From: Candidatus Gastranaerophilales bacterium
GTDB taxonomy: Bacteria > Cyanobacteriota > Vampirovibrionia > Gastranaerophilales > Gastranaerophilaceae
NCBI GenBank assembly: GCA_944323595.1
Contig: CALUTF010000005.1
Location: 1-64,000, forward strand
Reading direction: 5' to 3'
Length of the DNA stretch: 64,000 nucleotides
This document shows, in pieces, positions 23,127 through 27,287 of the stretch. The notes below the pieces were generated by a model, which saw nothing but the letters and a program-made list of their open reading frames with translations, had not been told where the DNA came from and searched no databases. The translations under genes were made by a program, and so were the position numbers. Numbering within the stretch: the first letter of the stretch is position 1; each line of letters starts with the position of its first letter.

Positions 23127-23212
23127 GCCGATGTGATGAAATTGGTAGACGTGCTAGACTCAAAATCTTGTGGGGTTCACGCCCCGTGCCGGTTCGACTC
23201 CGGCCATCGGCA
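23127..23212 (+). tRNA. tRNA-Leu, anticodon CAA
   Basis: The 86-base gene folds as a class II tRNA: acceptor GCCGATG (23127-23133) pairs with CATCGGC (23205-23211), the D arm has AATTGGTAGAC, the anticodon loop CTCAAAA gives CAA for UUG codons, a long variable arm follows, and the T arm contains GGTTCGACTCC. One U-U opposition lies in the anticodon stem. CCA is not encoded. A hairpin terminator follows directly. Confidence 0.95.
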
Positions 23213-23394
23213 TTTTTAAAACTCTCTACGGAGAGTTTTTTTGTTACGGAGTCGAACCTCCGGTTCTTACCTCTCATAAAATATGACATTTAGTCATATT
23301 TTATTCGGCAGAGTGGCCATCGGCATTTTTAAAACTCTCTACGGAGAGTTTTTTTGTTACGGAGTCGAACCTCCGGTTCTTGCCTCTCATAAAA
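23202..23394. repeat. 80-bp direct repeat of tRNA 3' end plus terminator
   Basis: Bases 23202-23281 recur at 23315-23394 with one mismatch, 113 bp apart. Each copy starts with the last 11 bases of tRNA-Leu (GGCCATCGGCA) and includes the AAAACTCTC-TACG-GAGAGTTTT hairpin with its T-tract and a further GGAG...CTCC inverted repeat. A duplicated tRNA 3' end next to a tyrosine recombinase gene is the usual trace of site-specific integration, although only 33 bp lie between the copies. Confidence 0.85.
23218..23242 (+). terminator. tRNA-Leu terminator
   Basis: A 9-bp stem (23218-23226 with 23231-23239), a TACG loop and seven T; repeated 113 bases downstream. Confidence 0.85.
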
Positions 23395-23462: not shown

Positions 23463-24005
23463 ATGAATACAGTAGAACCAATTAGAGACAAAAAAATTCT
23501 TGCTGCCGTTGAAAATTTCTTAAATAATAAAAATGAACGGGATTTATTAATTTTTACACTTGGAACGAATTGCGGTTTAAGAATATCAGACATTCTGGCG
23601 CTTAACGTTAAAGATGTAAAAAATAAATCTTATATAGAAATCATTGAAAAAAAGACAGGTAAGAGAAAACGTTTTCCGATAAATCTTAAATTAAAGCCAA
23701 TGATAGCATCTTTTACAGAAGACAGGGATGATGACGAACCGTTGTTTTTATCTTATTTATATAACAGAATGGAGCGAACGCAGTGTTACAGAATAATAAA
23801 CCGTGCCTGCAGGGCTGCAGGTATTGAACATAAAGTCGGCACACATACATTGAGAAAGACATTCGGTTATCATCATTATCAAAAGTTTAAGGATGTGGTA
23901 ATGCTGCAAAAAATTTTAAACCACTCAAGCCCCCAGATAACTTTACGATACATAGGAATTGATCAGGATTGTATAGACGAAAGCTACAAAAATTTTATCC
24001 TTTAA
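23463..24005 (+). CDS. Minimal tyrosine recombinase
   Basis: This 180-residue protein is just the catalytic domain of a tyrosine recombinase, the size of the FimB/FimE invertases rather than XerC or phage integrases (about 300-400). All catalytic residues are visible: R40 (NCGLRISD), a lysine in the KKTGKRKR hairpin (63-70), H128/R131 (HTLRKTF), H154 (LNHSS) and Y163 (LRYIG). It should cut and rejoin short DNA sites through a phosphotyrosine link. The start at 23463 has AAAGGA. The gene sits between a duplicated tRNA end and a pair of inverted 26-bp sites ahead of glycosyltransferase genes, which suggests that it works on one or both. Confidence 0.9.
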   Translation: MNTVEPIRDKKILAAVENFLNNKNERDLLIFTLGTNCGLRISDILALNVKDVKNKSYIEIIEKKTGKRKRFPINLKLKPMIASFTEDRDDDEPLFLSYLYNRMERTQCYRIINRACRAAGIEHKVGTHTLRKTFGYHHYQKFKDVVMLQKILNHSSPQITLRYIGIDQDCIDESYKNFIL

Positions 24006-24012
24006 TTTAAAC

Positions 24013-24050
24013 AAAAAGCTCAACATAATATACATTGTGTTGAGCTTTTT
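24013..24050 (+). repeat. Inverted site 1 (also a terminator-like hairpin)
   Basis: The 26-bp core at 24019-24044 has 11-bp arms (CTCAACATAAT, ATTGTGTTGAG) around the centre ATAC. The stem is extended by AAAAAG and CTTTTT, so on RNA it would also terminate the recombinase transcript. Reversed, the core matches site 2 with one mismatch in 26; read directly it differs at three positions. The centre is therefore in the opposite orientation to site 2. Confidence 0.85.
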
Positions 24051-24175
24051 GCTGTAATCCTTATGGTAACAATATTAACACAAAAATAATAAAACAATAG
24101 TTTTTACATAATACGTAAAATTTTTGTTACATATTGACAGTGAAAACTGCCTGTATTCCTCTAGTTTCAACATTT
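24045..24175. other. Candidate invertible segment (131 bp)
   Basis: This AT-rich, gene-free stretch lies between the two inverted sites. On the plus strand it has TTGACA at 24134-24139 without a convincing -10 at normal spacing. On the minus strand an extended -10 (TG-T-TAATAT, 24072-24080) points away from the glycosyltransferases and would point towards them after inversion. Promoter assignment is tentative. Confidence 0.45.
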
Positions 24176-24201
24176 CTCAACACAATGTATATTGTGTTGA
24201 G
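24176..24201. repeat. Inverted site 2, upstream of glycosyltransferases
   Basis: The arms CTCAACACAAT and ATTGTGTTGAG pair perfectly around the centre GTAT. There is no T-tract, so it is not a terminator. It lies 21 bases before the ATG of the next gene. It is the reverse complement of site 1 with one mismatch. Confidence 0.85.
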
Positions 24202-24222
24202 AGTTTAGAAAGAGAAGAAACT

Positions 24223-25350
24223 ATGTCACAAATGACAACGAAGATAGATTTACAAAGTGTCCCGATACTGTCACCTGTATGGGATGATAATTATACCGCA
24301 ATAGCAATGAGCAGCAGTAATGAGTATGTGCCGTATTTGTCTGTATGTCTTCAATCATTAAAGGAAAATTGTTGTAATAATAACTACGATATTATAGTCT
24401 TTGAAAGAGATATTACTGATAAAAATAAATTAATATTGAAAAGTCAAATTGAAAATGATAACTTTTCTTTACGTTTTGTAAATCCAGAACCATTAATCAA
24501 AAATTATGATTTAAAATTTCCGTCACACTATAATTTAGAATGTTACTTTCGTTTAGTCGCACCATTAATATTAAAAAAATATAAAAAAATAATTTTTACT
24601 GATGTAGATTTAATTTTTCAAAAAGATATTTCAGATTTATATTCTATACCGCTTAATAAAGCTCTTGGTGCTTGTCAGGATTTAGTATTTTGTGCATTTT
24701 GCGATACTACAAATTTGCGAAAGTATGAATATGCAAAAGAAGAATTAGAGTTGAATGATCCGTATAAATATTTTAATACCGGTGTATTGTTATTGAATGT
24801 AGATGAATTTAATTTAAAAAATATACCTGCAATTTTATTAGAAATGGCTAATGAAAAAATGTATCAGATATTAGAACAGGATGTTTTCAATAAATATTTT
24901 AAAGAAGATATTGCATATCTGCCTGATTCTTGGAATGCCCCTACTATGAATCCAAGATATGAAAATTTTATGAAAAATTTGCAACCTAGATTTGTGGAAA
25001 GATATAAAAAAGCTTTAGAAAATCCGTTTATAATACACTGGGCGGGTTATGCAAAACCTTGGAAAGATGCTGATACCGATATGGCATATTTATGGTGGCA
25101 ATATGCAAGAAGAACGCCATATTACGAAGTAATTTTACAAAGAATGTTTGCAAATATAAAAAATAAATCAGCGTTGAGTAAAGAAGATCTTGCCTGTGTA
25201 ACCTCATATAGAAAAAATATATTTGCATATTGGCGATATAAATTGTTATCAAAGATAACCTTTGGCAAGAGAAAAGAACACTATACAACTAAAAGATATT
25301 TGTGGAAAGAGAAGATTAAAAAGGCAGAAAAAATACGCGGAGGAGTATAA
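24223..25350 (+). CDS. GT8-family glycosyltransferase
   Basis: This 375-residue retaining glycosyltransferase of family GT8 (LPS galactosyl/glucosyltransferase type) transfers a hexose from a nucleotide sugar. It has AIAMSSSNEYVPYLSVCLQSL at the start of the Rossmann fold, the metal-binding DVD at residues 127-129 (IIFTDVDLIF), FNTGVLLLNVDEF, and IIHWAGYAKPW near residue 270. The start at 24223 is chosen because the family N-terminus begins there and an AGAGAAG site precedes it; the extra upstream 33 residues run through the inverted site. It is more AT-rich than the housekeeping genes and coupled to the next gene (TAATG). Confidence 0.9.
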   Translation: MSQMTTKIDLQSVPILSPVWDDNYTAIAMSSSNEYVPYLSVCLQSLKENCCNNNYDIIVFERDITDKNKLILKSQIENDNFSLRFVNPEPLIKNYDLKFPSHYNLECYFRLVAPLILKKYKKIIFTDVDLIFQKDISDLYSIPLNKALGACQDLVFCAFCDTTNLRKYEYAKEELELNDPYKYFNTGVLLLNVDEFNLKNIPAILLEMANEKMYQILEQDVFNKYFKEDIAYLPDSWNAPTMNPRYENFMKNLQPRFVERYKKALENPFIIHWAGYAKPWKDADTDMAYLWWQYARRTPYYEVILQRMFANIKNKSALSKEDLACVTSYRKNIFAYWRYKLLSKITFGKRKEHYTTKRYLWKEKIKKAEKIRGGV

Positions 25351-27287
25351 TGTCAGACGATATCAAAGTATCAGTATTAACACCAATATACAATCATAAA
25401 ATAGAATATGTTCGTCAGTGTCTGGAGAGTTTGCGTGCACAAACCATGCAAGATATAGAATTTATATTAATAGATGATGGCTCTGCTCAGGATTCAAAAG
25501 ACTTAATGTCTGAATATGAACAGGCAGATTGGCGTTTTAGAGTGATTCATTTTGAAAAAAATGGCGGTTATGCAAGAGCAATGAATGCAGGTTTAAATGC
25601 AGCCAGAGGAGAATATATTGGTATTGTTGAATCTGATGATTGGGTTGAACCTGAGATGTTTGCAGAATTGTATGAAATGGCATTCAAAAATAGTGCAGAT
25701 TTAGTAAAAAGCCAATACTATGAGCAAAATGAGGATAACCAAAAATTAATTTCAAGATTCCCGTCAGATAAGATGAATAAAATTATAAAAAATACGGAAG
25801 TACCTAATTTTTTACTGGCACATGCTGCACCTTGGACAATACTATATAGAAAAGCATTTTTAGATAAATACTGTATTAGAATATGTGAAAGAAGAGGCAA
25901 TACCGCTAATGACATAGGTTTAGTTATTAAAGCTTTTATTGCTGCTAACAAAATTTTTATTACAGATAAGGCTTATTATCATTATAATGTAGCCAATACC
26001 AATTCGAGTATGAAAATTAAAAATGCAGATTATATCCTTAATGGTCTTTATGCAGAATATGAAAATATAGCAGCTTGGTTCAAGAAAAATATTAATCTTT
26101 GTTTGGATGAACTATTTGCATTAGTTGATAAAAGAAAATTTTTTAATTTTGTATGTATTTTAAAAAATAAAAATATTATTTGTTCAAGAAATAATTTAAA
26201 ATTAATATCCCGAGAATTATCTAAAATAAAATATTTAAAATATTTTACAGATGAAGACAAAGTGCTTCTGGCAAAATTAAAGAAAAATTCCGGTAAATAT
26301 TACAGGCAAGTACATAAAGAAAATAGTTTTATTGAAAATATATTTTCAATAAAGAATAACGATAGAAAAACGCATAAAAAAATAACAATTTTAGGAATAA
26401 AGTTCAGCGTAAAGCGAAATCAAAAAGAAAATGTTAAACAAAAAGAAAATTTTGAAGAAAGATTACGCTCAGTTCTACGCGAAGAAGTGTCAAATGTTGT
26501 AGCAAGAGAAGTTTCACTGGCACTCAGTGTACAAAAATTACACATGCAAACATTTCCACCGTTCAAGAATATCCATAACAATCAGAGTGTTGCGATTATT
26601 GGCTGCGGGCCATCTATAAAATATTATAACGGGCAACTTAATACTGTAAATATTGCTCTTAATAAAGCTATATTTCTTGATAATATAAATTTTGATTATC
26701 TTTTTACCTGGGATTATCTCGGATTTCAGGAAAAGGCACCTGATTTTTTTGACAGAGTGAAAAAATATAATTGTAAAAAATTTTACGGGAAATTTTTAGC
26801 AGATAATCTTTCAAGTATTCCGGAATTTTCGGATGATGAAGAAAATAATATTTATCATTTTTATTCATCTGCAAGACACAAGCTGCCAGCGTATTCTTAT
26901 GGAGAAATAATACACTATGATATAGAAACTCATCCGCTGGCAGATTTTATGTCTATATCATTCGGCGCATTGCATTTTGCGTTGTATACACGTCCGGAGA
27001 AAATTTATTTAATAGGGCTTGATACACAGAATTGCGGACATTATGCGGGGGATAATAATACATATAACATTAATAAAATGATGCTTGGATACAGAAAGTT
27101 TAAAACTCATATTGAAACGCACTATCCTGATGTAGAAATTATCTCTGTAAATCCGGTAGGATTAAAAGGATTGTTCAAAGATGTATATACAAAAGAATAT
27201 GTTGAAGCTCATCCTGAATTATTTGATAGTTTAGAAGATATAGAAATCTTAGATAATTCCCTTGAAAAAGAATTTTGTAGGTTATAG
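25350..27287 (+). CDS. GT2 glycosyltransferase fused to DUF115-like domain
   Basis: This 645-residue protein joins two domains. Residues 1-220 are a GT-A family 2 transferase (VSVLTPIYNH, IDDGSAQDS near 42, MNAGLNAARGEYIGIVESDD near 85). About 100 charged residues follow. From about residue 413 a Rossmann-like domain begins with VAIIGCGPSIKYY and continues with ISFGALHFALYTRPEKIYLIGLD, as in DUF115/Maf-type and GT42 sialyltransferase-like folds. It probably extends a surface glycan with two activities. A GGAGG Shine-Dalgarno precedes the ATG overlapping the GT8 stop. Confidence 0.8.
   Translation: MSDDIKVSVLTPIYNHKIEYVRQCLESLRAQTMQDIEFILIDDGSAQDSKDLMSEYEQADWRFRVIHFEKNGGYARAMNAGLNAARGEYIGIVESDDWVEPEMFAELYEMAFKNSADLVKSQYYEQNEDNQKLISRFPSDKMNKIIKNTEVPNFLLAHAAPWTILYRKAFLDKYCIRICERRGNTANDIGLVIKAFIAANKIFITDKAYYHYNVANTNSSMKIKNADYILNGLYAEYENIAAWFKKNINLCLDELFALVDKRKFFNFVCILKNKNIICSRNNLKLISRELSKIKYLKYFTDEDKVLLAKLKKNSGKYYRQVHKENSFIENIFSIKNNDRKTHKKITILGIKFSVKRNQKENVKQKENFEERLRSVLREEVSNVVAREVSLALSVQKLHMQTFPPFKNIHNNQSVAIIGCGPSIKYYNGQLNTVNIALNKAIFLDNINFDYLFTWDYLGFQEKAPDFFDRVKKYNCKKFYGKFLADNLSSIPEFSDDEENNIYHFYSSARHKLPAYSYGEIIHYDIETHPLADFMSISFGALHFALYTRPEKIYLIGLDTQNCGHYAGDNNTYNINKMMLGYRKFKTHIETHYPDVEIISVNPVGLKGLFKDVYTKEYVEAHPELFDSLEDIEILDNSLEKEFCRL

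Follow-up and report, generated by a model that had tools for sequence, protein, structure and literature searches.

The tyrosine recombinase Tsr19 of B. fragilis is encoded beside the invertible promoter of an extracellular polysaccharide operon and also inverts a distant promoter, and in the same organism Mpi serves as master invertase of 13 surface-polysaccharide promoter regions (PMC4747536). In C. difficile, one tyrosine recombinase, RecV, inverts several distant switches for surface and signalling genes (PMC5903667). A comparable arrangement is described here for Candidatus Gastranaerophilales bacterium, in a window (the whole stretch of DNA that was analysed) comprising positions 1 to 64,000 of contig CALUTF010000005.1 of assembly GCA_944323595.1. 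Gastranaerophilales are gut bacteria related to cyanobacteria; they are non-photosynthetic and for the most part uncultured. In the window, inverted recombination sites bound a short segment beside a recombinase gene (Table 1). The locus is read as an invertible-promoter switch for phase variation that is operated by the 180-residue recombinase, which would also act in trans on two further cassettes of the genome; the probability of this reading is put at about 0.88. Judging from related loci, the exact copy in the window would invert as well, and the switch presumably affects a surface glycan.

Table 1. Features of the candidate switch, in window coordinates
Feature	Position	Strand	Size or evidence
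Tyrosine recombinase comprising the catalytic domain alone; presumed invertase	23463..24005	+	180 aa; Pfam PF00589
Putative composite hairpin-T terminator, site 1 with flanks (AAAAAG..CTTTTT), at OFF exit	24013..24050	.	fold
Dif-like recombination site 1 with 11-bp arms and centre TATACA	24019..24044	+	26 bp
Candidate invertible segment, 131 bp	24045..24175	.	homologous segments inverted in relatives
Extended -10 promoter motif TGTTAATAT, pointing away from GT8	24072..24080	-	27 bp inside site 1
Dif-like recombination site 2 with centre TGTATA, which faces opposite to that of site 1	24176..24201	+	26 bp
GT8 glycosyltransferase, first operon gene	24223..25350	+	PF01501 1.7e-41
GT2 glycosyltransferase, second operon gene	25350..27287	+	PF00535 8.6e-34

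The recombinase, its sites and the segment between them

The recombinase gene, whose ATG is preceded by a ribosome-binding-like AAAGGA, encodes a protein that matches the Pfam Phage_integrase family (E=1.1e-26), aligns to the structures of XerA and XerH, and carries a complete catalytic set (R40, the hairpin lysine of KKTGK, H128, R131, H154, and Y163). Its catalytic fold and R-K-H-R-H-Y residues place it among the tyrosine recombinases. A preliminary description of this DNA had likened it to FimB/FimE; the size is indeed comparable, but family membership did not hold up, since the protein scores 49 and 32 bits against NCBIfam cut-offs of 222 and 221 (PRK09870/PRK09871) and is 27-30% identical to these enzymes. 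Nor is it an XerC/XerD equivalog, as it scores 72 bits against 329 for XerD and 71 against 335 for XerC, with the profile match covering the C-terminal domain only. These sequence comparisons make the enzyme Xer-like and place it outside the FimB/FimE family. Closely upstream of the gene lie two 80-nt direct repeats (99%; window 23202-23281 and 23315-23394), both corresponding to the tRNA-Leu(caa) 3' end together with the terminator, a possible relic of insertion at a tRNA gene.

The two sites differ by three mismatches in direct reading and by one when either is reverse-complemented, indicating that their asymmetric centres face opposite ways; the chance expectation of the site pattern within the window is 0.00. 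The GT8 start lies 21 bp beyond site 2. Much of the preliminary description is thereby upheld: the Pfam match and the located residues agree with its catalytic-domain-only tyrosine recombinase of 180 residues with all catalytic residues, the coordinates and mismatch counts with its two 26-bp elements with 11-bp arms in inverted orientation, and the coordinates with its placement of the 131-bp segment 21 bp plus one site upstream of GT8-GT2. The extended -10 motif that it had noted inside the segment does point away from the operon as assembled. The -35 of this candidate promoter is weak and a generic sigma-70 scan of the window did not flag it, so that promoter activity is something we infer; the segment would hold an outward promoter driving the neighbouring gene. 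At the exit toward which the motif points, site 1 and its flanks form a hairpin of -21.0 kcal/mol followed by 7 T in 8, a long composite structure that a generic terminator scan of the window missed. Site 2, the exit if the segment were flipped, has no T run.

Homologous loci and their orientation in Gastranaerophilales

The recombinase is present in 65 of 146 related genomes, and 120 distinct homologous loci were collected. Inverted pairs of 22-mers starting no more than 200 bp downstream of the recombinase were found at 60 of the 120 loci, compared with 4 among 360 shuffled regions and 0 among 97 shifted ones, and about 47 loci have no recognisable pair. Inter-site spacing is mostly 150-200 bp, and the site sequence varies by lineage, tracking the sequence of the recombinase (Mantel r 0.63; 0 of 5000 permutations). 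These data bear on whether the segment might be inverted by the host XerC/XerD or by another recombinase, with the small recombinase being incidental. The sites do resemble dif, and the host genome encodes two full-length Xer proteins (C13, 313 aa; C44, 312 aa). XerC and XerD bind different arms of dif around a 6-bp centre, however, and the two arms of each site in the window are alike, which separates them from dif/XerCD sites. With the site sequence varying along with the adjacent recombinase, and with pairs adjoining this particular family at as many as 60 loci, inversion by the host Xer pair or by another recombinase is very improbable, and the adjoining recombinase is retained as the candidate invertase.

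The extended -10 motif (TGNTANNAT) occurs in 42 of the 60 inter-site segments (13.5 +/- 3.3 in the dinucleotide control) and its position peaks 20-29 bp before an exit site. Where the motif lies within 20-45 bp of an exit, it faces the downstream gene at 13 loci, the recombinase at 16, and both at none. The first open reading frame past the distal site is co-oriented in 53 of 56 cases. Of 52 target proteins, 12 match GT2 and 3 match GT8, with further matches to LicD, GLF, Stealth, and sugar transferases, and one is a PLD-SNF2 restriction-like protein. Some loci carry three sites downstream of the recombinase (L155, L097/L170, and L187), those of L097 being two direct and one inverted, and at such loci different segments could be inverted, or one of them deleted. 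Two recombinase loci (L197 and L206) come from MAGs carrying Fusobacterium and Clostridium labels, possibly through mislabelling or gene transfer. In IMG/VR, the site pattern had no match, and the recombinase was found at four loci, one with a site pair.

Natural inversion is seen among these homologous loci. Loci L141 (G020) and L198 (BRZ_CB bin30) are 98.7% collinear over 6.5 kb, and only the inter-site segment, exactly 195 bp with 100% identity, is inverted; inverting it in silico raises the identical positions over 379 bp from 272 to 379. The same operation raises identity from 260 to 364 of 382 positions for L204/L212 and from 112 to 272 of 281 for the core of L110/L120, pairs that are 96-98% identical, and a fourth pair (L207/L208) differs by an inter-site inversion at 87%. 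The recombinases of the high-identity flipped pairs are 55-63% identical to that of the window; in a closer clade (about 70-74%), inverted alignments were found only at 68-78% identity. The search for a flipped copy in relatives that the preliminary description had proposed was thus successful for homologous loci, at which both orientations expected of an inverton occur; no flipped form of the exact window cassette was seen among the homologous loci compared. The gene that follows the flipped pair L141/L198 encodes a 1076-aa protein with PLD and SNF2-helicase domains that resembles restriction/defence proteins (PADLOC HKD+Snf2, DrmD), raising the possibility of a phase-variable defence.

Assembly breakpoints were also considered. 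Six contig ends in the sister species G003 stop at such sites. Of 13 contigs that break off shortly after the recombinase, 6 do so at or inside site 1. Assemblers behave in this way when both orientations coexist, which would account for these ends, and repeated cassettes could contribute in part.

Sister cassettes in the host genome

The host genome (G000; 2.05 Mb in 77 contigs, with the window on C5) contains the site pattern at exactly six places, which form three pairs, each spaced by 157 bp: one in the window, one at C2:98827-99009, and one at C3:106712-106894. The whole 183-bp cassettes are 88-92% alike among these three distant copies, and all three lie directly ahead of glycosyltransferase operons, the C3 copy preceding a GT2-cytidylyltransferase-HMGL operon. 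The preliminary description had weighed against its own proposal a palindrome scattered at unrelated operons as the operator of a regulator. That case is answered, since the other copies are whole cassettes, with the same spacing and homologous contents, rather than lone sites. A broader version, in which the palindromes are operators or simple Rho-independent terminators and no recombination takes place, draws on the near-perfect hairpin formed by each site and on the strong terminator fold of site 1 with its flanks. It does not explain why the sites in this genome exist only as evenly spaced pairs with homologous contents, why homologous segments are inverted precisely between the sites in relatives, or why site pairs are tied to an adjacent recombinase; it was rejected as extremely improbable.

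Three such similar copies at distant loci must have spread somehow, and the cassette could accordingly be a non-autonomous MITE-like element whose terminal inverted repeats are moved by a recombinase or transposase, with its position near glycosyltransferase operons due to chance. Yet no target duplication is apparent in the cassette flanks, all three copies sit directly ahead of such operons, and homologous cassettes change orientation in place with their flanks unchanged. On the first and last of these grounds, this explanation was also rejected, and chance mobility has very little probability. A family of cassettes together with flipped homologous loci lends support to the earlier interpretation of the locus as a switch for phase variation of a surface glycan.

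The genome encodes only one intact recombinase of the window type for its three cassettes with the same sites, a set that may have a master invertase of the Mpi/Tsr19/RecV kind. A 60% identical paralog (G000:C4:50039-50491; L009 1501-1953) appears to be frameshifted ahead of the catalytic tyrosine, and G002:C51 has a match of the same extent. Because the sites are shared and a second intact recombinase of this type is lacking, the window recombinase probably acts in trans on C2 and C3. It might instead act only in cis on C5, leaving C2 and C3 as locked relics, given that it lies beside C5 only and that G023 and G016 have a single cassette each, with no extra ones for the recombinase tested there. 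Against this, the opposed sites of C2 and C3 are still intact, the promoter motif is retained, and the distance of 27 bp between the extended -10 and the exit is the same in all three cassettes; G003 has six half-sites, enough for three cassettes; and distant loci are among the targets of the tyrosine invertases Tsr19 (PMC4747536) and RecV (PMC5903667). Restriction to cis is thus considered unlikely, and action in trans is kept as part of the preferred reading.

The exits of the cassettes differ in a manner consistent with directional control. At the OFF exits of C5 and C3 there are terminators, the hairpin at C3 having -13.2 kcal/mol with 5 T, and at their ON exits there are none. The C2 cassette has no T run at either exit, so that a glycan operon should be read in both orientations. 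It lies (L006 8828-9010) between divergent operons, one with GT8/GT2-LicD and the other with GT2-GT29 sialyltransferase/NeuB/cytidylyltransferase, and is probably an either/or glycan switch. In G003, a 24.9-kb contig (G003:C28; L067, L068) carries opposed sites at both of its ends, which adjoin an SLH gene and a GT2 operon that flank one and the same cassette in G000; recombination between distant cassettes is a possible cause. Gene order differs generally between G003 and G000, and for this reason the difference was not taken as operon shuffling driven by the switch.

Proposed switch and its relation to described systems

In the proposed mechanism, the recombinase would pair the two inverted dif-like sites, and strand exchange inside their asymmetric centres would turn the 131-bp promoter segment round. 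In the assembled orientation, the promoter would point at the recombinase gene's 3' end, and the hairpin-T terminator of site 1 would stop transcription (OFF); in the flipped orientation, the promoter would fire through site 2 into GT8-GT2 (ON). The same recombinase would probably act on the other two cassettes in trans, with C3 working like C5 and with C2, when flipped, exchanging one glycan module for the other.

Outside Gastranaerophilales, the closest relatives found were small Xer-like recombinases carried by plasmids and prophages in Firmicutes (such as pSK37042, pMP21332_1, and Geobacillus phage GR1), which are 38-52% identical over nearly the whole protein. Of 14 such plasmid and phage homologs examined, three (L229, L230, and L232) have an upstream dif-like palindrome that is like the window site at 15-18 of 24 bases, with only L229 and L232 clearly exceeding shuffles. 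An inverted site pair was looked for in six of the plasmid and phage homologs, and none was found within 900 bp. A multimer resolvase would be expected to use one site, and these single palindromes hint at an origin from such an enzyme and suggest a route from resolvase to promoter switch. A bolder scenario, held tentatively and with somewhat less than even confidence, is that in Gastranaerophilales a plasmid-type Xer resolvase became a glycan switchboard, in which one recombinase controls three 183-bp cassettes in trans, C2 chooses between LicD/GT8 and sialyltransferase/NeuB, and recombination between distant cassettes may reshuffle glycan operons.

If the preferred reading is true, stochastic variation of the surface, and perhaps of defences, would occur in Gastranaerophilales as it does in Bacteroides, by means of widespread promoter switches that precede surface-glycan genes and, in one instance, a restriction-like gene. 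The states of these switches could be read from existing metagenomes. No report that links phase variation, invertons, or DNA inversion to Gastranaerophilales or Melainabacteria was found in a search of mainly open literature, which is weak evidence of absence.

Compared with Tsr19, the locus shares a tyrosine recombinase that adjoins the invertible promoter of a polysaccharide operon, and the multi-repeat forms of that system are like the three-site loci described above. It differs in phylum, in its unrelated site sequence, and in its composite terminator and its two-way cassette. In Tsr proteins an N-terminal DNA-binding domain is present and the protein is full-length; the window recombinase consists of the catalytic domain only. 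Mpi is likewise one master invertase for many surface-polysaccharide promoters, but it is a serine recombinase, whereas here a tyrosine recombinase would serve three cassettes. RecV sites differ among its switches and RecV is not encoded beside them, whereas the sites here are identical and the recombinase adjoins one of the cassettes. FimB/FimE with fimS offer a tyrosine recombinase of about 180-200 aa that lacks an N-terminal domain and adjoins an invertible promoter; the fimS repeats are 9 bp, in contrast to the dif-like sites of 26-28 bp here. As judged from sequence, the mode of action is like that of the Tsr19, RecV, and FimB/E switches already known, and it is the Xer-like recombinase and its kinship with Firmicutes plasmids that set this system apart.
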